In this document: positions 13,979-22,886 of the stretch, in pieces | Numbering within the stretch: the stretch's first letter is position 1 | Layout of the letters: the number at the start of each line of letters is the position of its first letter | DNA from: Arcobacter sp. | GTDB taxonomy: Bacteria > Campylobacterota > Campylobacteria > Campylobacterales > Arcobacteraceae | DNA: 34,367 nt | NCBI GenBank assembly: GCA_002869565.1 | Contig: PKUJ01000027.1 | Location: forward strand, 1 to 34,367 | Reading direction: 5' to 3' | Program-made: the position numbers and the translations under genes | Notes under the pieces: model-generated | Told to the model about the DNA's origin: nothing | Databases searched by the model: none | The model's input: only the letters and a program-made list of their open reading frames with translations

Positions 13979-14000
13979 TCTTATTTTAATATCAATTATA

Positions 14001-14036
14001 AAAAGCTTCTTAGTTTTGCTAAGAAGCTTTTTTTTT
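14001..14036 (+). terminator. Intrinsic terminator after nhaD
   Basis: A perfect 13-base stem (AAAAGCTTCTTAG / CTAAGAAGCTTTT) with a 5-base loop is followed by an uninterrupted T run, 22 bases after the nhaD stop. It closes the lipoprotein-nadB-nhaD operon and insulates guaA. Confidence 0.92.
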
Positions 14037-14114
14037 GTCTAAATTTATTTAAACAATTTCAAATGATTTTTTAGATAAAATAGCGGATATAATAAAAATA
14101 GAGGAATTTATTTA

Positions 14115-15650
14115 ATGAAACATGTACCAATAGTTGTATTATATTTTGGTAGTCAATATACACAAATCATTGCAAGAAAACTAAGAGAAGCGGGTGTTTA
14201 TTCTGAAATTGTACCTTACAATGAAAGAATTGAAGATATTTTAGCAAGAACACCAAAAGGTATTATTCTTTCAGGTGGTCCAGCATCAGTTTATGCACAA
14301 GATGCTTATCATCCAGATGAAGAAATTTTCAATCTTGGTCTTCCTATTTTAGGAATTTGTTATGGTATGCAACTTATCTCACAATTTTTTGGTGGTTCAG
14401 TAATTCCTGCTGATCATCATGAATATGGTAAAGCAAAATTAAAATTTGAAAAAGAAAATGCAATTTTCAAAGACACAGATGATGGGCAAACAGTTTGGAT
14501 GTCACATGGTGATAAAGTAGATAAACTTGCAGATGGTTTTGAAATAATTGGGACAAGTGAAAACTCTCCATTTGCTGCGATTGCAAATGAAGCAGAAAGA
14601 ATTTATGCATTTCAATTTCATCAAGAAGTTTATCATTCAGAGCAGGGTTCAAAAATTCTTAAAAACTTTGCAAAATATATTTGTGGTTGTGAATCAACTT
14701 GGAATATGGGTGGATTTGCAAAAGAACAAATCAAAAAGATTCAAGATACTGTTGGGGATAAAAAAGTTCTTTGTGGTGTATCTGGTGGAGTTGATTCATC
14801 TGTTGTAGCAACACTTTTAGCAGAAGCAATAGGTACTCAAGTTATACCTGTATTTGTTGATAATGGGCTTTTAAGAGCAAATGAAAGAGAACAAGTAGAA
14901 GCTATGTTTGCTGCACGTGGTGTTCCTTTAATCACAGTTGATGCATCTGAGCAATTCTTATCAAAATTAGCAGGTGTTACAGATCCTGAAACAAAAAGAA
15001 AAATCATAGGTGAAACATTTATTAAAGTATTTGATGAAGAAGCAAAAAAACATGATGGTATAGAATTCTTAGCACAAGGAACTTTATATACTGATGTTAT
15101 TGAATCAGTATCAGTAAAAGGACCTTCAAAAACTATCAAATCACATCACAATGTAGGTGGACTTCCTGATTGGATGACATTCGAATTAATCGAGCCATTA
15201 AGAGAAATCTTCAAAGATGAAGTTAGACTTCTAGGATTAGAATTAGGACTTCCAAAAGATATGATTGGACGTCATCCCTTCCCTGGTCCAGGACTTGCAA
15301 TTAGAGTTATGGGAGATGTAAATAAACCTGACTTAGAATTACTGAGACGTGCAGATACTATTATGTTAGATGTATTACATGCAACTGGTCTTTATGATAA
15401 AACATGGCAAGCCTTTACAGTTTTACTAAACGTAAAATCTGTAGGTGTAATGGGTGACAACAGAACTTATGATAACACAGTATGTGTTAGAATAGTAGAA
15501 GCAACAGATGGTATGACAGCAACATTTGCTCATATTCCTCATGATATTTTCGAAACAATTTCAAGAAGAATTATTAATGAGGTTGATGGGATCAACAGAG
15601 TTGTGTATGATATTAGTTCAAAACCGCCAGCAACTATCGAGTGGGAATAA
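14115..15650 (+). CDS. guaA: GMP synthase (glutamine-hydrolysing)
   Basis: 511 residues, full length. It converts XMP, glutamine and ATP to GMP. The N-terminal class I glutamine amidotransferase shows the nucleophile LGICYGMQ (Cys near 82) and the His-Glu of [13 protein letters not shown]. The ATP-pyrophosphatase domain has the P-loop [12 protein letters not shown]. The C-terminal dimerisation domain has [14 protein letters not shown] and ends PPATIEWE. One oddity: the strongly conserved LDFGSQYTQ near the N-terminus reads LYFGSQYTQ here, a GAT-to-TAT change. The integron integrase lies just downstream on the opposite strand. Confidence 0.96.
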
Positions 15651-15752
15651 AAGCGATAGCTTTTATTCATCTTGCACTAGATTTAGGTTCGAGGTACTTT
15701 TAGTACATCTTCACCTAAATCTAGCACAATCTAAACAAAATCTATCGCTTTT
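15649..15752. terminator. Large nested hairpin between guaA and the integrase gene
   Basis: The outer arms AAAAGCGATAG (15649-15659) and CTATCGCTTTT (15742-15752) enclose inner arms CTAGATTTAGGT (15677-15688) and ACCTAAATCTAG (15713-15724), which in turn enclose GTAC/GTAC. It starts in the guaA stop codon and ends in T-rich sequence, so it probably terminates guaA and perhaps the converging integrase transcript. It is unusually long for a simple terminator. Confidence 0.6.
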
Positions 15753-15808
15753 AAAATTTTTATCTAAAACTAAAATCTACAGCTTTAATCGAGTCTTCTA
15801 ATATTTTG

Positions 15809-16771
15809 TTAGAAATCCAATGGGCTTCTTATTTCACCTTTATTTAACTCTTTTATGACATGTGTATATATCATCGTTGTTTCTATTGACTTATGACCTA
15901 ATAGTTCCTGAATACTTCGTATATCAGTACCATTTTGAAGTAAATGAGTTGCATAAGAGTGTCTAAAAATATGAGAGGTTACTCTTTTGTCGATATTAGA
16001 CTTTTGGACTGCATTTTTAATATTTCTACTTAAAGTTACATCTAAAATATGATGTCGTCTTTGTTCACCGCTTCTAGGGTCTGTTGAAATTTTATTCATG
16101 GGAAAAATATACTGCAATTTGGTTTCAGATTTTGCTTTGGGAAATTTTCGCTCAAGTGCATAAGGGATATATACACTTCCAAAGCCATCGTTTAAATCTT
16201 TTTGGTGTAGCTCTTTTACTTTTTGTACTTGAATCTTTAATTCATCCTTTATTTTCAAAGGAAGTGGTAGTGTTCTATCTTTTAGTGACTTACTGTCCCA
16301 TATATAAAGTTTATCAAATCCAAAATCAATATCTTTTATACGTATGTTCTGAACTTCACTCATTCTCAACCCACATCCATACATAAGCTTTGCCATAAGT
16401 TGATAGATGCCCTTCATATTAAGAATGATACTTTTTACTTCCTCTATAGTTAGAACAACTGGAATATGTTTTCTCTCTTGTGCCCTTAAAGCTTGTATAT
16501 TCTCATTTTTTAACGATATATTTAAAACTTGTTCGTATAAAAATAATATTGCATTAAATGCTTGGTTCTGTGTGTTTGGAGATACATTTAACTTTGTAGC
16601 TAAATGAGTAAGAAACTGTTCGATTTCTAATTTCCCCATTTCTTTTGGATGTCGCTTATTATGGTAAAGTATATATCGTTTAGCCCAATGTATATAAGTT
16701 TTTTCTGTACTTATACTGTAGTGTTTAAATCTAATTTTATCTTTCATAATATCCAATAATTTTTTGCCCAT
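15809..16771 (-). CDS. intI: Integron integrase (tyrosine recombinase)
   Basis: 320 residues from the ATG at 16771, which has GGAGGTG seven bases upstream; an in-frame extension to 16837 lacks a ribosome site. The N-terminal part is a core-binding SAM-like domain ([18 protein letters not shown]). The catalytic domain shows Arg in GCGLRMSEV, Lys in [28 protein letters not shown] and the nucleophile in TMIYTH. The stretch [18 protein letters not shown] is the extra alpha-I2 helix that separates integron integrases from other tyrosine recombinases. It should insert and excise single-stranded attC cassettes at attI. Gene direction, promoter and attC sites on its 5' side match a complete integron. 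Confidence 0.93.
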
Positions 16772-16832
16772 AATACACCTCCAAATAAACTTAACAAAAT
16801 GCAGGTTTATCATGATATTGTCATAATATACA

Positions 16833-16888
16833 TACATTATGTACTATTATCGTCTAGATATCGATAATAAACATACATAAAAATTATA
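16833..16888 (-). promoter_or_regulatory. Putative intI promoter region with inverted repeats
   Basis: Reading toward intI, a TATAAT (complement of 16883-16888) could be the -10 element. The leader that would follow holds the inverted repeat ATTATCG/CGATAAT (16846-16852, 16862-16868) and the palindrome TACATTATGTA (16833-16843). These could be operators or integrase-binding sites. There is no match to a known LexA box that I can recognise. Confidence 0.35.
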
Positions 16889-16955
16889 GCAAATGATTAA
16901 AATTTATTTAAAAAATATAACAAATTGCAATATTTTTTATAGTTAAATATGTAAT

Positions 16956-16975
16956 AATACCTTATTTAAGGTATT
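16956..16975. repeat. 8-bp inverted repeat in the intI/attI interval
   Basis: AATACCTT and AAGGTATT are separated by four bases. It sits between the divergent integrase and cassette promoters, so it is a possible regulator or accessory integrase binding site. It has no T run and is unlikely to be a terminator. Confidence 0.45.
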
Positions 16976-17018
16976 TGTTGTTGTTTTAATATACAACATA
17001 TATTGTGTATATTATTTG

Positions 17019-17046
17019 TTGATTTTCAGTCTATCTTGTATATAAT
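17019..17046 (+). promoter_or_regulatory. Putative cassette promoter (Pc)
   Basis: TTGATT (17019-17024), a 16-base spacer and a perfect TATAAT (17041-17046) point into the cassette array and lie just upstream of the attI core. This is where integrons place the promoter that drives cassette expression. Confidence 0.6.
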
Positions 17047-17069
17047 GTATGTTCAATAAATAGTTAACT
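17047..17069 (+). other. attI insertion site (core GTTAACT at 17063-17069)
   Basis: The core GTTAACT is the exact reverse complement of the AGTTAAC box opening the attC of cassette 1, as expected when a cassette is cut between the first G and the next T. Exchange would be between 17063 and 17064. The outer limits of attI and its accessory sites cannot be fixed from the sequence. Confidence 0.7.
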
Positions 17070-17082
17070 GTAAAGGCACGTG

Positions 17083-17589
17083 ATGAGAAATATTCTTACA
17101 ATTGTAGTTTTTCTATTATGCTTTTCGAGTCATGCAGTAGGTTTCGAAAGACATGAAATTGAATTTTCGGTGCCAGTTAAGTATGGAGTTGAAGCCTATA
17201 AGACAGACTTACAAAATTGGGTTTCTTCGCTTGTGAAAGGGCTTGGCTACGACTCGTCAAAAATAGCCACATATGTATTTCTCAAAACCGATATATCAAT
17301 ACGAGCTGATGGCAAAATTGTGGAAGGTGCAATATATCAGAACAAAGACAAGCCAACGCAGTTTTATGTTTCTAAGCCTAAAGCCGCTATCGTTGATTTT
17401 TCGGCAGGTAAGGTCGGCACCATGGGGGTTTCGGGAATATCTACACATCCTACTCCGAGCGGTCGTATGGTGGTGGTTTTGTCTCCGCAAAAGGGTACAA
17501 ATATTCTGGGCGTAACCCTAGACTTTACGTTTAAAACTCAAGTTAAAGAACCAAAGTTTAGTTCCAATAGTGTCCACTATGAGTGGTAA
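17083..17589 (+). CDS. Cassette 1: exported protein of unknown function
   Basis: 168 residues from ATG 17083, six bases after AAAGG; the GTG at 17080 is too close to that site. A signal peptide (about 1-20, ending SHAVG) is followed by a soluble, mostly beta chain (FERHEIEFSVPVKYG, GKVGTMGVSGISTHPTPSGRMVVVLSPQKG) with no cysteine in the mature part. I do not recognise the family. The DNA is visibly richer in G+C and uses codons such as CGG, GCG and GGC that neighbouring genes avoid, so it was probably acquired recently from another lineage. Its stop lies six bases before its attC, as is normal for a cassette. Confidence 0.75.
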   Translation: MRNILTIVVFLLCFSSHAVGFERHEIEFSVPVKYGVEAYKTDLQNWVSSLVKGLGYDSSKIATYVFLKTDISIRADGKIVEGAIYQNKDKPTQFYVSKPKAAIVDFSAGKVGTMGVSGISTHPTPSGRMVVVLSPQKGTNILGVTLDFTFKTQVKEPKFSSNSVHYEW

Positions 17590-17594
17590 AACAC

Positions 17595-17672
17595 AGTTAA
17601 CAAAGCCAAGCAGCATCGCCAGCAAAGCTGGCTGGACCTCGCTACGCTCGGCCGCTGTTGGCGGCGTTATGT
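17595..17672 (+). repeat. attC site of cassette 1
   Basis: R'' AGTTAAC (17595-17601) and R' GTTATGT (17666-17672) flank L'' GCCAAGCAGC (17605-17614) and L' GCTGTTGGC (17654-17662). L'' and L' pair with one unpaired G, the extrahelical base typical of attC. Between R and L is the unpaired spacer. An inner stem GCCAGC/GCTGGC is present. The short, G+C-rich form resembles attC sites of gammaproteobacterial cassettes. Confidence 0.9.
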
Positions 17673-17721
17673 TTACTGAGCAACTGCCTTTATGTAAATC
17701 TATTTTAACAGAGGATATTTA

Positions 17722-18669
17722 ATGAGCAAAAAAGAAAACAATAAAGAATTAGAATTTTTAGAAAATTATAAAGTAATAGCAGTAATAATTTTAGGTACTG
17801 TATTTCTTACCTATTTGTACTCCAAAACTGGTTTACAGTTTACAATATCTACAGCTAGTGATATGGGAGCAATTGGTGATTTCTTTGGTGGTTTATTGAA
17901 TCCCATATTTGCATTAATAGGACTATTCGCACTTTTAGCAACTATTAAGATTCAAAGTAAAGCACTTAAAATTTCAAGCGAAGAGCTTGTAAATTCACGA
18001 AAAGAACTTAAATTGACACGAGGTGAGTTAGAAAAATCTGCAATAGCTCAACAGGAACAAAGTCAATCTATAAAATTACAAAATTTTGAAAATACTTTCT
18101 TTAAGATGATAGATGTTTATAATTCAATTGTATTTGATTTATCATTGGATAAATTTGAAGATGCTCCACAGTATAATGGTCTTTATAATATTAGTTTTTT
18201 AAATAAAAAGATTGATTTAAAAAAGAATGAAGATGTGAAAGAAAAAGAAACTATTAAAAAATTAGTAACTATTTTGAGAGCTTATAAAAAAGTAGAGACA
18301 AAAGAGTACAAACTGATATATGATAAATTTCATCAGAACTATGAAGATAAAATTGGTCACTACTTCGGTTTTATATATCAAGTATTAATATTTATAAAGG
18401 ATGCTGAAGAAAATAATAAAGTTGAAGATGCAAAAAAATATGCTCATCTTTTCAGATCATTATTTTCAAAATATGAACTTGCTTTATTATCTTACCATTG
18501 TTTAGGTAGCATAGGAAGCAAAAAGTTTAAAGGGTTAGTTGAGCATTTTGAATTCTTTGAACACTTACCTATTAATATTTTAACTCATGAACTTATATTA
18601 ATGTATAACAAAAATGTATTTGGTAAAAATGAAAAGTGGAATAATAAAATAAAGAAATTAGCACAATAG
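17722..18669 (+). CDS. Cassette 2: putative phage abortive infection membrane protein (putAbiC-like)
   Basis: 315 residues. Two N-terminal membrane helices (about 16-34 and 55-80; GDFFGGLLNPIFALIGLFAL) lead into a long coiled coil with repeated Ser/Lys-Glu-Leu patterns (SRKELKLTRGELEKSA), then LQNFENTFFKMIDVYNSIV and a cytoplasmic helical domain (HYFGFIYQVLIFI). This order is typical of the putAbiC family (putative phage abortive infection proteins). The mechanism is not known to me. ATG 17722 follows GAGGA. Base composition resembles the host. The stop is 16 bases before its attC. The family call is from pattern recognition. Confidence 0.75.
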   Translation: MSKKENNKELEFLENYKVIAVIILGTVFLTYLYSKTGLQFTISTASDMGAIGDFFGGLLNPIFALIGLFALLATIKIQSKALKISSEELVNSRKELKLTRGELEKSAIAQQEQSQSIKLQNFENTFFKMIDVYNSIVFDLSLDKFEDAPQYNGLYNISFLNKKIDLKKNEDVKEKETIKKLVTILRAYKKVETKEYKLIYDKFHQNYEDKIGHYFGFIYQVLIFIKDAEENNKVEDAKKYAHLFRSLFSKYELALLSYHCLGSIGSKKFKGLVEHFEFFEHLPINILTHELILMYNKNVFGKNEKWNNKIKKLAQ

Positions 18670-18685
18670 GTTCATATGCAATAAA

Positions 18686-18818
18686 ACATAACAAAACCTA
18701 GGAGAGGAACAATCTACCCATCGGCTTTAAAGTAGTTTTAGGCTATCATTTACAAATTAACAAATAAGTAGTTTAAAGTGATAAAAGGGTAGCGTGTCCC
18801 TCAAGTCAACCGTTATAT
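18686..18818 (+). repeat. attC site of cassette 2
   Basis: R'' ACATAAC (18686-18692) is the reverse complement of this cassette's 5' core GTTATGT at 17666. R' is GTTATAT (18812-18818). The two ends fold back on each other, with matched segments such as CTACCC/GGGTAG and CTTTAAA/TTTAAAG toward the loop. At 133 bases it is a long attC. Confidence 0.85.
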
Positions 18819-18839
18819 TAAAGAAGGGAATACAAGTAT

Positions 18840-20060
18840 ATGAGTAATTGGTTTAAAGTAATTATACCAGAAGAAAAACTTCATCCTAAATTTATTCATT
18901 TATCAGATTTTGCCTATTTAGAGGAAAAAAATTTAGTTAGTGAATGGATAAGAAGATTTGTAAATAAAGACGGCAATAAGAAAACTATTACACAGTTTCA
19001 AGAATCATTTCATTCTATGATTTGGGAACTATATTTAAATGAAGCTATTATCACTTCATCTATAAATATAATTAAAGATGAAAATAAAGAGTCTGTTGAT
19101 TTCTTTATTCAAAAAAATAATCAAAAGGCAAATATAGAAGCCGTAGTTTCTAATATCTCTGATAGTTCTCCAAAAGAATCAGAAAGAACACTAAATGATA
19201 TTTACGGCAATAATGATTATTATAAGATCATGAATGAATCGAGTCCTAGATTATTAAATTCTATTATAAGTAAATCAAACCATTACGAAAAACATTATAT
19301 AAAAAATAGCAATATTAGAGATAATCCATTTGTTTTAGCGATTAGTGATCATGCACAAATTAATTCAGGCCAATCATCATATTACCCTTTACTTAATATT
19401 TTATATAATGCTTATTATGATCCAGAAGATAGAGAAAATTTAAAAATATATGGTTATGATAATTTAGACCATGAATATAAATATAAAGATACTTATCTTA
19501 AAAGTAATGGTACTCAACTTGAGTTAGGATTATTTTCTACAGAAAAATATAAACATATTTCAGCAATAATCTATAGTTGTACAATGACACTAGGAAAATT
19601 AACATCTTTGTGTGTTAATCATTCAACACCAAAATTTATAGTTACAGAATGGGAAGAACATAAAAAATTAAGATATTCGAATACAATAAGTGATGAAAAT
19701 TTATTAGATGGTCTATTTATATTTCATAATCCCTATGCAGAAAAAGAATTTTCAAATGATTTTTTTAATCAAAAAGGGATAACAAATATATATTTTAATG
19801 AAGATGATTGTGATGAGTTTATAGTGTTAAATACAAAAGAAAGATATTCTCCATTAGTAAGAAGATATGTAGGGGTAAAGGGAGATGAATTTAATTTAAT
19901 AAAAGATATAGATGAATTTATGTTTATACCAACAAATATAACAAATCATTGGAAAAAGAACAAGGCAATACTGCGAAAATATAGACCTTTAAAGTATCGC
20001 AGAAAGATTTTTAAAAGAGTTGAAAGACAAGACGTTAAATTGCCTTATCCTTCAATTTAG
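18840..20060 (+). CDS. Cassette 3: unknown cytoplasmic protein, possible PD-(D/E)XK nuclease fold
   Basis: 406 residues, with no signal or membrane segment. I do not recognise a named family. Near residues 50-105 it has FQESFHSMIWELYLNEAI, then ESVDFFI, then NIEAVVSNI. A helix with Glu, an Asp before a strand and a following Glu-x-hydrophobic strand is the skeleton of PD-(D/E)XK restriction-type nucleases, but the lysine is missing or replaced, so this is a hint only. The rest is acidic and aromatic-rich, with a basic tail (KYRRKIFKRVERQD). The last 40 or so codons lie inside the cassette's own attC. Position beside a putAbiC gene makes a defence role plausible but unproven. The ribosome site (AAGAAGG) is rather far from the ATG. 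Confidence 0.7.
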   Translation: MSNWFKVIIPEEKLHPKFIHLSDFAYLEEKNLVSEWIRRFVNKDGNKKTITQFQESFHSMIWELYLNEAIITSSINIIKDENKESVDFFIQKNNQKANIEAVVSNISDSSPKESERTLNDIYGNNDYYKIMNESSPRLLNSIISKSNHYEKHYIKNSNIRDNPFVLAISDHAQINSGQSSYYPLLNILYNAYYDPEDRENLKIYGYDNLDHEYKYKDTYLKSNGTQLELGLFSTEKYKHISAIIYSCTMTLGKLTSLCVNHSTPKFIVTEWEEHKKLRYSNTISDENLLDGLFIFHNPYAEKEFSNDFFNQKGITNIYFNEDDCDEFIVLNTKERYSPLVRRYVGVKGDEFNLIKDIDEFMFIPTNITNHWKKNKAILRKYRPLKYRRKIFKRVERQDVKLPYPSI

Positions 20061-20069
20061 TCGTTATAC
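19936..20069 (+). repeat. attC site of cassette 3, overlapping the 3' end of its gene
   Basis: R'' ATATAAC (19936-19942) is the reverse complement of the cassette's 5' core GTTATAT at 18812. R' is GTTATAC (20063-20069). The arms fold: ATTGG/TTCAAT, AAGGCAAT/ATTGCCTT and CTGCGA/TCGCAG (19971-19976, 19997-20002). The stop codon at 20058-20060 is only two bases before R', so the attC is coding through most of its length. Confidence 0.82.
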
Positions 20070-20089
20070 AAAAAAATAATTAGGGTAAA

Positions 20090-20295
20090 ATGAATTGTAT
20101 TTTTTGTTTTGAAAAAGGTTGATATAATACAGTTGAACATATTATCCCTGAATCTTTAGCTAATGGTGATATTTTACTGCATAAAGCTATATGTGATAAA
20201 TGTCAAAATTATTTTGGCGTGCCTGGTATGGTTTAAAAATTTGGGGTTATGTAAAACCAAGTGAGGAAGTTGTATTCTACAAATCAAAAACATAA
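20090..20295 (+). pseudogene. Cassette 4: decayed HNH endonuclease gene
   Basis: From ATG 20090 the frame reads NCIFCFEKG, then TGA (20120-20122), then YNTVEHIIPESLANGD and AICDKCQNYFG. This is the C-x2-C, EHIIP, C-x2-C pattern of small HNH (HNH_5-type) nucleases. The frame stops at 20234-20236; the shifted frame continues as GLKIWGYVKPSEEVVF to a TAA at 20293. So the gene has a nonsense codon and a frameshift or internal deletion. It lies 21 bases after the R' core of the previous attC. Confidence 0.7.
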
Positions 20296-20313
20296 CAGAA
20301 TAAAAGGAACAAT
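20286..20313 (+). repeat. Truncated attC (left half only) of cassette 4
   Basis: AAAACATAACA followed by AAAGGAACAAT closely resembles the left arm of the cassette 2 attC (AAAACATAACA, then GAGGAACAAT). No matching right arm or GTTATGT-like core is found before or after the acetyltransferase gene, so this attC is probably cut short by a deletion at the array end. Confidence 0.5.
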
Positions 20314-20319
20314 TATAAA

Positions 20320-20754
20320 ATGAAATTGAACATTAGAGCTGCAACTGTTCAGGATGTGGACTCAGTCTATGAGCTGGTCTGTGAATTAGAAAATATACAA
20401 TATACTAAAAAATCATTTGTTGATTTATATAAAATAAATATTGATGACTTGCATATAGGTTATTTTGTGGCTGAAATAAATGAATCAGTAGTTGGATTTG
20501 GGAGTGTTTATATCAATAAATTGTTGCATCACTGTGGAGATATTGCTGAAATTCAAGAATTGATTGTTTCTCAAGAATTTCATAATAAGAATATAGGGAA
20601 AATCCTTTTGAATAATCTGATTGAATGGGGTAAAAAACGAGGAGCAGCCCAAATAGAAGTAACTTGTAATATTCTTAGGGTCAAAGCTCAGAAATTTTAT
20701 AAAGCTAATGGTTTTCTTAACACTCATCAGAAACTTGTGTTTATGTGTGATTAA
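20320..20754 (+). CDS. GNAT-family N-acetyltransferase, PhnO-like
   Basis: 144 residues, one complete GNAT domain. The acetyl-CoA loop is seen as VSQEFHNKNIGKILLNNL (usually Q/RxxGxG/A; here NKNIGK), and the end has KAQKFYKANGF. The order RAATVQDVDSVYELVCELE, the LHHCGDIAEIQELIV strand and overall length resemble PhnO, which acetylates aminoalkylphosphonates. The true substrate is unknown. AAAAGGAAC lies upstream of the ATG. It begins 25 bases after the dead cassette 4, so it could be the last gene of the array or the first chromosomal gene beyond it. Confidence 0.75.
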   Translation: MKLNIRAATVQDVDSVYELVCELENIQYTKKSFVDLYKINIDDLHIGYFVAEINESVVGFGSVYINKLLHHCGDIAEIQELIVSQEFHNKNIGKILLNNLIEWGKKRGAAQIEVTCNILRVKAQKFYKANGFLNTHQKLVFMCD

Positions 20755-20910
20755 AAAGTGCCAACAATACAAAAAATTGTATGCTAGTTATAGTTGTTAT
20801 TAAAAGATATTTAATCAAATATTTATATTTACAAAAAATAATTTTGCAGTCTTTTTTAAGGATGTAAGCCTAATTTCATTAGAATACAAAGAATATTTAA
20901 AGGATAATTT

Positions 20911-21261
20911 TTGAACGAAAATATAATTTATGCATTTATTGCATTAGCAGCTTTTATAGCTTATAAAAAATATACACAATACCAGGTATTAAAGCTTGTT
21001 CCAACTCTGCTTTCTCAAGGTGGTCAAATTGTTGATGTTAGAAGCGTTGAGGAATTTGTAACAGCCCACAAAGATGGAAGTATTAATATCCCATTTGATT
21101 TGCTTAAAGATAGAGTGAGAGAACTAGATAATTCCAAGCCTATAATTCTTTGTTGTGCAAGTGGAAGTAGAAGTGGACTGGCAAGGCGTACTTTAATAGC
21201 CAAAGGATTTGAAAATGTTTATAATGCAGGGACTTGGAAATCTCTTATGAAGTTTCAATAA
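20911..21261 (+). CDS. Membrane-anchored single-domain rhodanese
   Basis: 116 residues from TTG 20911, seven bases after AAGGAT; no ATG fits. One N-terminal membrane helix (about 5-20) precedes a single rhodanese domain with VDVRSVEEF and the active loop CCASGSRSG, where the catalytic Cys sits at the loop start. It should carry sulfane sulfur, but donor and acceptor are unknown. A strong terminator follows directly. Confidence 0.85.
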   Translation: MNENIIYAFIALAAFIAYKKYTQYQVLKLVPTLLSQGGQIVDVRSVEEFVTAHKDGSINIPFDLLKDRVRELDNSKPIILCCASGSRSGLARRTLIAKGFENVYNAGTWKSLMKFQ

Positions 21262-21265
21262 TGAA

Positions 21266-21303
21266 AATTACTTATAATCAACACTTCTTGATTATAAGTA
21301 ATT
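21266..21303. terminator. Perfect 16-bp hairpin after the rhodanese gene
   Basis: AATTACTTATAATCAA and its exact complement TTGATTATAAGTAATT surround a 6-base loop, five bases after the stop. The T run after it is weak, but position and perfection support termination for the rhodanese message. It may also act on the converging kinase message. Confidence 0.75.
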
Positions 21304-21389
21304 ATTGTAATTATTGTTTCATACAAATTAAGATGTTCTAAGAATTGGAAAGATAGGGATTAAGAATTAAGGGTAAAAATAAATAAAAA

Positions 21390-22886
21390 TTATATAGGCA
21401 AAATAATAAAAAATTTTGCGCCTTTATAAGTTGTTTTTTCAAATTCTATATTTTCATTTTTAACAAGTATCTTGCCTGCAAAATGTTCATGAATAATTTT
21501 TGCACTCATATACAACCCAATACCTGTCCCTTGACTTTTATGTTTTGTAGTAAAATATGGGTCAAATATTTTATCAATAATATTATCTTGAATTCCACCT
21601 GCATTATCATGAATTGTAATAATTATTTGATTATCTTCTTTTAAAAATTTTACTTCTATTATTTTTTCTTTTACTTTATTCTCAATTAATATATCTTTTG
21701 AATTATTAAGAATATTTATAAAAATTTGACTTAATTCATTTATCACTCCATCTACTACTAATTCATCTTCACAGGGTACAATATTTAGGGTAATAAAATT
21801 GTTTTCTAATGAAGCAGATACTATATCAAGAGCTTTTGTAAAAGAAGTTTCAATATTAAAATATTTCTTCTTAACGCTATAATCTTTTGCATAATCTCTA
21901 AAATCATCAATGGTTTTACTTAAATAATTTGCATATTTCATTATACTATCTGAGGTGTTTTCAATTTCATTCTCTTCTAAAAGATTTAATTCTTTTCTTA
22001 GTTTTAAACTACTCATTTGAACAGTAATAGCACTTAAAGGTTGTCTCCACTGGTGGGCAATATTATTAAGCATTTCACCAATAATTACCATTCGAGATTG
22101 ATGTTTAATCATAATATCTTGTTCTTGATTTTTCTCAATTTGGGATTTTAGCTCATTAAATAATTTTTTTTCTTTTTTATTTAAATACTTTAAATCTATT
22201 ATATTTTTTTCAATATTTTTTGCCATTAGATTAAAAGATTCTTGTAGTTCAAATATCTCTTTGCTATCTCCTAAGTTTATTCTTTGTGCATAATCTCCAT
22301 GAGCAATTGCATCTGCACTTTGCGTTAATTTAACTAGATTTTTTATAATCCATTTGCTTATTGCTATAAGTAAAATTGCTGATAATATTAATTCTATTAA
22401 AGCAATAACAATACTTCGAGTAATCATCTCTTTTTTTGCTTGAACGTAGTATTTCGTAGAAAGACCTAAATAGACTTTGCCTAATGACTGCGAAAATAAA
22501 GTTATAGGAATGTTTGTATCAAATCTTTGATCTTTCAGTGATTTTTCACTAAAAGGATCTACTTCTGTTGGCGGCAATTTTGAACAACCATTCCATCCAA
22601 CAGAGGAAATACAGTTGTTTTGATTATCAACAACAACTAAATAATCTACGGTTTGAATATTTTTAGTCTCATTTAAAATTGCATGAATTGTTGCATAATC
22701 CATTTGAACAAGAGGTGCAACTAAGGCACTTTTTAATAATATTTTTTGCTCATCTAATCTTATATTTGTTTGTGTTGATAGGTTTATTTTTAATTGATCT
22801 ACATTTTTCATTACCATTAAAGTGAGCATTAAACTCTCTATTAATAAACTAGCAACTACCCATTTCCAAGCTAAAGATACTCTCAT
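21390..22886 (-). CDS. Membrane sensor histidine kinase with periplasmic sensor and HAMP
   Basis: 498 residues. Membrane helices at about 7-27 and 158-182 flank a periplasmic sensor of about 130 residues, which holds a close cysteine pair (NNCISSVGWNGCSK) able to form a disulfide. HAMP and a coiled coil follow. The phosphoacceptor region is GEMLNNIAHQWRQPLSAI (His near 278) and the ATP-binding domain shows DNAGG, DPYFTTKHKSQGTGIGLYM. It starts directly after the stop of the PhnD-like gene, with no spacer, so the binding protein and kinase probably work together, as in TorT/TorS or AioX/AioS. No response regulator gene lies beside it. Confidence 0.9.
   Translation of the reverse strand: MRVSLAWKWVVASLLIESLMLTLMVMKNVDQLKINLSTQTNIRLDEQKILLKSALVAPLVQMDYATIHAILNETKNIQTVDYLVVVDNQNNCISSVGWNGCSKLPPTEVDPFSEKSLKDQRFDTNIPITLFSQSLGKVYLGLSTKYYVQAKKEMITRSIVIALIELILSAILLIAISKWIIKNLVKLTQSADAIAHGDYAQRINLGDSKEIFELQESFNLMAKNIEKNIIDLKYLNKKEKKLFNELKSQIEKNQEQDIMIKHQSRMVIIGEMLNNIAHQWRQPLSAITVQMSSLKLRKELNLLEENEIENTSDSIMKYANYLSKTIDDFRDYAKDYSVKKKYFNIETSFTKALDIVSASLENNFITLNIVPCEDELVVDGVINELSQIFINILNNSKDILIENKVKEKIIEVKFLKEDNQIIITIHDNAGGIQDNIIDKIFDPYFTTKHKSQGTGIGLYMSAKIIHEHFAGKILVKNENIEFEKTTYKGAKFFIILPI

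Follow-up and report, generated by a model that had tools for sequence, protein, structure and literature searches.

The first 34,367 nucleotides of contig C16 (PKUJ01000027.1) of an Arcobacter sp. genome (GCA_002869565.1), hereafter the window, contain a complete chromosomal integron next to guaA, and the leader of its integrase gene intI carries a palindromic site that is also found in front of DNA repair genes of the same order. We consider it highly probable that the element is a complete integron with a foreign first cassette and two defence cassettes, and that its intI is controlled without LexA, via a palindrome that it shares with repair genes. As an integron it is of an already known kind; its distinguishing trait is this operator, which is independent of LexA and which intI has in common with the order's repair genes. 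The initial annotation had recognized the complete integron beside guaA, which holds, as integrase, attI and three attC-bounded cassettes were all identified (Table 1), but it missed that cassette 1 is foreign and that defence genes are present, and it named neither the repair-gene palindrome nor the further attI platforms of the genome. The genome comprises 3.49 Mb in 42 contigs and is 99.7% complete, with the window at the start of contig C16. Throughout, "the order" is the one assigned to this genome, taken as Campylobacterales, of which 398 genomes were searched; the other sets were 15 other genomes of the genus, 104 of the family and 390 of the order of Microbulbifer.

The palindromic, operator-like site AAATATnnCAnnnTGnnATATTT lies in the intI leader, and 31 of the 43 distinct intI leaders of the order contain its 19-base core, ATATnnCAnnnTGnnATAT, with one mismatch or none, compared with 0.6% of mononucleotide shuffles. 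Moreover, 21 of these 31 leaders with a good palindrome have a hexamer with at least five of six matches to TATAAT at a distance of 27 nt. Seven loci were present under two identifiers (L013/L092, L019/L091, L024/L098, L026/L101, L032/L100, L035/L099, L037/L097) and are counted once here; with the duplicate rows the counts are 35/49 for the palindrome and 24/35 for the -10 box. In the genome of the window AAATATnnCAnnnTGnnATATTT occurs with at most one mismatch at 12 places, against one for a control pattern; the exact matches among them, five in number, stand before radA, a PemK-radC pair, intI and the genes of a 126-aa and a 262-aa protein. Among 26 genomes of the order, which were chosen by hand and of which 20 have an integrase match, 16 contain exact sites, 52 in total versus none for the control pattern. 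Of these, 51 were analysed, and the position of the remaining one (G091:C13:80779) places it in an intI leader. As many as 41 of the 51 sites are located outside open reading frames (ORFs) and at most 120 nt upstream of an ORF start, compared with 6.9% for positions drawn at random from these regions, and three lie inside ORFs of at least 80 aa. When the neighbouring genes were grouped by BLAST and representatives identified by Pfam or NCBIfam, 26 of the 51 sites were found to precede recA (5), radA (4), radC (6, one of them with a PemK-type gene in between), comM/YifB (4), recG (3), the gene of pol IV (2), ruvA (1) or recQ (1), and three precede intI or an intI remnant. Furthermore, among the 29 sites that precede a repair gene or a candidate repressor, 25 have a -10-like hexamer exactly 27 nt behind the 19-base core (background 6%); in the window the palindrome would then be centred near -48. 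The common operator that characterizes an SOS regulon is present here in another motif, with the recA sites coming from other genomes and those of radA and radC from the genome of the window. A PemK/MazF-type gene stands between palindrome and radC at two loci, L139 of the same genome (assigned by Pfam) and L170 of G368 (by likeness), and radC follows the palindrome directly in four other genomes of the genus. Among the open-licence PMC papers listed as matches, judged by titles and the starts of abstracts, no description of this palindrome or of an SOS regulon of Campylobacterota was found.

The repressor of a LexA-controlled SOS regulon was not found. In the 99.7% complete genome no LexA exceeds the cut-off of 110.95 bits, and the three matches that were obtained (38.7-47.5 bits) cover the C-terminal peptidase part only. 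Epsilonproteobacteria or Campylobacter are given as devoid of LexA elsewhere, too (PMC13114513, PMC5665897). As in LexA-controlled integrases, the intI leader contains a palindromic site common to host repair genes, whereas the motif is a different one and no LexA was found. A candidate regulator is the protein at L181, which has the site in its own leader and combines a helix-turn-helix (PF07022, 26.7 bits) with an S24 peptidase domain (PF00717, 67.6 bits). L207, from another genome, likewise has the site in its own leader and encodes a 78-aa protein with a phage-repressor-like N-terminus, no Pfam match and 39% likeness to L181, and the genome of the window encodes a protein 38% identical to L181 (L214; S24 gene at C7:79712-80359). 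Among phage proteins, L214 and L181 are most closely related to repressor-like proteins from phages of Campylobacter and Helicobacter (34-44% for the best matches). Since S24 proteins related to phage repressors are SOS regulators of Bacteroidetes, a group without LexA (PMC8565304), an S24 candidate is reasonable, and the regulator may be such a phage-repressor-like S24 protein or else an activator. The S24 domain and the site in the leader of L181 are the likeness to the non-canonical LexA of Bacteroidetes (PMC8565304); different are the motif, the fixed spacing to the -10 box and the status of the protein as a candidate. An activator comes into consideration because the constant spacing between palindrome and -10 box suggests contact with RNA polymerase; a repressor is also possible. 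At the intI promoters analysed in PMC3108266 the E. coli-type motif was the only LexA motif found, and an alternative factor is named there as a possibility to explore; control of intI without LexA was thus left open, a question which the shared site makes directly testable.

We therefore suppose that intI belongs to a LexA-independent repair regulon, whose regulator and inducer are putative. The integrase gene would be controlled via the palindrome at 16913-16935 in place of LexA, and integrase expression would rise together with DNA repair and recombination. From the shared site, an inducible repair regulon is predicted in the phylum of Campylobacter and Helicobacter. Several observations weigh against such a regulon. 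Ten of the 26 genomes lack an exact site, with near matches in the intI leader of G332, G125 and G182, and 12 of the 43 distinct intI leaders are without a good palindrome. Upstream of the S24 candidate of the own genome (L214) the best palindrome match has four mismatches. At intI the distance from the site to the start codon is about 140 nt, whereas at the repair genes it is mostly less than 100 nt, and the fixed distance between operator and -10 box suits an activator more than a LexA-like repressor. The matches to pol IV are below curated cut-offs, as are those to recG and comM, which come from partial sequence stretches, and at ruvA the site falls within an ORF predicted on the opposite strand. 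In addition, sites are also found before genes of cytosine methyltransferases, ORF6N proteins, a family of 109-113 aa and unknown genes. The composition of the gene set also bears on the kind of regulon. The palindrome could belong to natural transformation (competence) instead of DNA damage, so that intI would be raised during uptake of single-stranded DNA; comM, radC and radA, which are part of competence regulons in other bacteria, account for 4, 6 and 4 of the 51 sites, respectively. We regard this as possible, albeit rather doubtful, as pol IV, recQ, ruvA, recG and recA also have the site and are closer to an SOS set, and no DNA-uptake gene was recognized among the neighbours, most unknown neighbours being outside the family-library searches.

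The assignment of the integrase is clear. The gene lies downstream of guaA (14115-15650) on the minus strand, and its product reaches 403.8 bits with TIGR02249 (cut-off 265), while XerD and XerC give 131.6 and 125.7 bits, far under their cut-offs. It aligns over its full length to the integron integrase chain 2a3v (E 5.4e-78), whereas the alignments to a XerA chain and a XerC-like chain break between residues ~168-182 and 238. This break presumably corresponds to the integron-specific insertion, and the gap is found at the place expected for the extra helix that had been ascribed to the protein beforehand. In a tree of 48 recombinases intI falls into a set of seven sequences from its own bacterial family (support 100/100), which nests among the order's integron integrases and is separate from three further tyrosine recombinases encoded in the same genome. 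These three, one of them XerH-like, served as outgroup and have very long branches. A recombinase of XerH type in this genome matches the structure 5jjv over its whole length (E 9e-106); we take XerH to be a mark of Campylobacterota, a phylum that such a 5jjv-like recombinase fits. With 42.9% identity to IntI1 the protein is not IntI1-like as in mobile class 1 integrons. An integrase grouping with XerC/D, or covariance models scoring none of the sites as attC, would have spoken against an integron, and neither was observed, because the integrase takes the tree position described and two of the three attC sites are matched by an independent model.

On the 5' side of intI the attI core GTTAACT was found as proposed in the initial annotation, embedded in the conserved attI sequence AATAAATAGTT, which is exact in 31 of the 43 distinct intI leaders of the order. 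The leaders also share a TATAAT-like box that precedes the crossover by about 20 nt, and in the window this box forms a promoter-like match, TTGATT-16-TATAAT. As promoter-like matches in the region are no commoner than in shuffles (36 vs 36.9), the evidence for a cassette promoter is the conservation, by which the TATAAT is probably the promoter of the cassettes. In the proposed mechanism IntI would recombine attC sites, as folded single strands, with attI at 17063 and thereby excise and insert cassettes, and the promoter inside attI would express the newest cassette most strongly.

In each of the three cassettes the R'' box is the exact reverse complement of the core at its own 5' end, as had been noted before, a test that is weak by itself in AT-rich DNA. 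As an independent test, covariance models for attC were built from core chains in 18 integron loci of other genomes, none of them from the window, using chain sites with AA behind R'' and a length of 66-73 bp (model R1, n=36) or 125-135 bp (R2, n=5). Chain sites outside these criteria, some of poor likeness, were dropped, and the E-values are rough because the models are short-calibrated. R2 matches attC2 and attC3 (Table 1), and nothing else in the window scores above 20.0 bits (E 0.12). The short-site model R1 misses both as whole sites and finds parts only, with 19.1 bits (E 0.093) and 10.4 bits, respectively, and attC1 obtains no meaningful score from R1 (11.2 bits, E 6.1) or R2. Bottom-strand folding gave z values of -2.7, -2.0 and -2.5 for the excised forms of attC1, attC2 and attC3, and of -1.2, -1.6 and -2.1 for the integrated forms; the excised attC1 thus has the lowest z of the three sites, its fold being as low in 3 of 300 shuffles. 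Three intact attC sites had been claimed: attC2 and attC3 are borne out by the independent model, whereas the models of the order do not fit attC1, which is supported as an attC site by its homology to a gammaproteobacterial cassette and by its fold. R1 and R2 detect no attC in 20070-20313, and the integron ends at 20069. An Rfam scan of 14000-22000 gave three matches, all below gathering scores and none on an attC. The 55 regions meant as negative controls for the attC models were not clean, as L143, L144, L169 and L177 matched with E<0.001; L143, L144 and L169 lie in integron-like places. Superintegrons are defined by many cassettes with near-identical attC sites, whereas three cassettes and two attC types are found here.

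Table 1. Features of the integron in the window and of the further attI platforms of the genome.
Feature	Position	Strand	Description	Basis
intI	15809..16771	-	integron integrase, 320 aa; GGAGG ribosome-binding site before start	TIGR02249, 2a3v, tree
-10 box of intI (predicted)	16883..16888	-	TATAAT preceded by TG, 27 nt behind palindrome core
Palindrome	16913..16935	.	palindromic operator-like site AAATATnnCAnnnTGnnATATTT in intI leader	leader conservation, genome searches
attI	17040..17069	+	core GTTAACT 17063-17069; TATAAT 17041-17046, probable cassette promoter	conserved among intI leaders
Cassette 1	17064..17666	+	ORF 17083-17589, 168 aa, no family above cut-off
attC1	17595..17672	+	78 bp, gammaproteobacterial type; R'' AGTTAAC 17595, core GTTATGT 17666	homology to gammaproteobacterial cassette, fold
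Cassette 2	17667..18812	+	ORF 17722-18669, putative AbiC-type abortive-infection protein	PF16872
attC2	18686..18818	+	133 bp, long type of the order; R'' ACATAAC 18686, core GTTATAT 18812	R2 55.1 bits, E 3.6e-8
Cassette 3	18813..20063	+	ORF 18840-20060, PD-T7-5-type defence protein (predicted); final codons inside attC3
attC3	19936..20069	+	134 bp, long type of the order; R'' ATATAAC 19936, core GTTATAC 20063	R2 67.5 bits, E 1.8e-10
Stretch behind last attC	20070..20313	+	short interrupted reading frame	sequence, R1/R2 scans
attI platform	C16, ~63.8 kb (L084)		71-aa intI remnant; one mismatch in attI; no attC found
attI platform	C4, ~8.9 kb (L147)		34-aa intI remnant; one mismatch in attI; two attC
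attI platform	C16, ~130 kb (L143)		no intI match; attI with 5 mismatches; two attC
attI platform	C16, ~256 kb (L144)		no intI match; attI with 3 mismatches; two attC

Cassette 1, which sits next to attI, has a G+C content of 43% compared with 27% for the window. Its gene occurs in none of the 397 other genomes of the order, and no match was found among plasmids in protein or DNA mode. A pattern scan with one genome per species revealed two relatives, both in one uncultured Microbulbifer (Gammaproteobacteria), and among the 390 genomes of the Microbulbifer order two contain relatives, this one and G730 (57% identity). The G730 relative (L121) forms a cassette of 604 bp, compared with 603 bp in the window, with the same GTTAACT core, R'' box AGTTAAC and next core GTTATGT, and with an attC similar in make to attC1. 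Both Microbulbifer copies precede an AGTTAAC, one with GTTAACT before it and the other with an in-frame stop, and the Microbulbifer genome has no integron integrase at E <= 1e-30. Composition, relatives, shared cores and size together argue that cassette 1 is foreign and stems from a gammaproteobacterial cassette family that reached this genome. It would have been captured from the gammaproteobacterial cassette pool, and a cassette of such origin at position one is evidence of capture across phyla. An AlphaFold model of the cassette 1 protein from a two-sequence alignment had a mean pLDDT of 40 and was discarded. A 43-bp stretch with 93% identity to the 3' half of attC1 is present in 82 of 5426 E. 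coli genomes, close to ychF and a tyrosine recombinase in the single locus viewed (L104 3001-3043); considered as an attC, it is an attC-like remnant at most.

Cassettes 2 and 3 probably carry anti-phage genes, judged by protein family, and would have brought these into the genome. The cassette 2 protein matches the putative AbiC domain PF16872 with 74.2 bits (cut-off 22), its match to AbiP being weak, and relatives occur in 14 others of the 104 family genomes. The cassette 3 protein matches PDLC04110 (PD-T7-5) with 217.7 bits (E 5.7e-65), and relatives of 30-41% identity occur in four others of the family genomes, in one of which (G443) an attC lies nearby. Eleven loci with relatives of the two cassettes were scanned (L126-L136); nine of them have cassette 2 relatives, and the scan detected no attC near these. 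PD-T7-5 is listed with a PD-(D/E)XK nuclease domain (PMC10952713). Anti-phage cassettes are known from Vibrio integrons, and the occurrence of defence genes as cassettes is a likeness between these and the integron described here (PMC12409362). Unlike in Vibrio, the types are AbiC and PD-T7-5, the phylum is another one and the defence function is a predicted one. If they act in defence, the two genes would mean that integrons can be seen as stores of defence genes in this group, too.

Integrons had been taken to be seldom described in genomes of this kind. They are not rare in the order, as 60 of its 398 genomes encode an integrase above the TIGR02249 cut-off (69 at E <= 1e-60), and Campylobacterota are among the integron-bearing phyla listed in PMC8618304. 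A comparison of the guaA neighbourhood in related genomes gave attC matches (E <= 0.01) at most 6 kb behind guaA in 10 of the 15 other genus genomes. In six of these ten intI or pieces of it follow guaA as well: the gene is intact in G402 (85%) and pieced or interrupted in G403, G374, G404, G397 and G401, which represent five other species of the genus. Neither attC nor intI was found behind guaA in G405, G243, G399, G362 and G406. The guaA position is thus common to members of the genus, but as the intI leaders at guaA form four groups or more (window and G404; G402; G401; G397), the integrons there were replaced or recombined. Simple vertical descent of one guaA integron was considered and is weakened by these leader groups, at least four in five species. 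In G368 (L079) the 3' end of guaA is repeated downstream, a mark of another element inserted at guaA. In chromosomal integrons of Vibrio and Xanthomonas intI is likewise divergent from an attI-led array with cassettes in one orientation. A chromosomal position common to many members of a genus is a further likeness, which is ilvD in Xanthomonas (PMC12444791) and guaA here. Different from both are the number of three cassettes, the two kinds of attC, the lack of a LexA over the cut-off and the several leader lineages at guaA. The broken relatives could also indicate that the integron of the window is decaying and immobile, with an integrase intact by chance; intI is pieced or interrupted at guaA in the five species named, and the end of the array is a remnant. 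This is unlikely, because the intI reading frame is complete and scores well over the cut-off, and because the foreign cassette 1 occupies attI, the position of the most recent capture.

Beyond the guaA integron, four further attI-bearing leaders with the palindrome are present in the same genome (Table 1). They are without an intact integrase, belong to different lineages, and three of them lead attC-bounded stretches. As the integrase of the window is the only match over the cut-off in its genome, it may act on all five attI platforms. It is fairly probable, with somewhat less confidence than for the integron and its operator as such, that an SOS-like, LexA-independent regulon of Campylobacterales, defined by the palindrome, the 27-nt spacing and the -10 box, captured intI and that one integrase serves several attI platforms, so that defence cassettes would be captured and shuffled in step with DNA damage or the uptake of DNA. 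That the element is instead an ordinary integron whose palindrome belongs to the region of attI/IntI binding and is no operator, with incidental likeness elsewhere, is very improbable: the palindrome does lie between intI and attI, a place at which other integrons are known to have integrase-binding repeats, and five of its 12 places in the own genome are integron leaders (C16:16913, C16:63830, C4:8922, C16:130307, C16:256348), but in other genomes 26 of the 51 exact sites stand before genes of repair or recombination, with the -10 box at the same spacing, and the attC models match only two of the other-genome regions given (L169, L177).

Beyond the array a GNAT acetyltransferase (PF00583, 63.0 bits) is encoded at 20320-20754 of the window, for which no attC of its own was found; acetyltransferases are common as cassette cargo. 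Finally, five integrons of the order have, near attC or attI, units of 136-139 bp whose hairpins are very stable (-44 to -63 kcal/mol with DNA parameters), namely from L093 3712 and 10330, L094 1897 and 2566, L095 5005, L099 4329, 4889 and 5777, and L100 6247 (0-based positions in array orientation).

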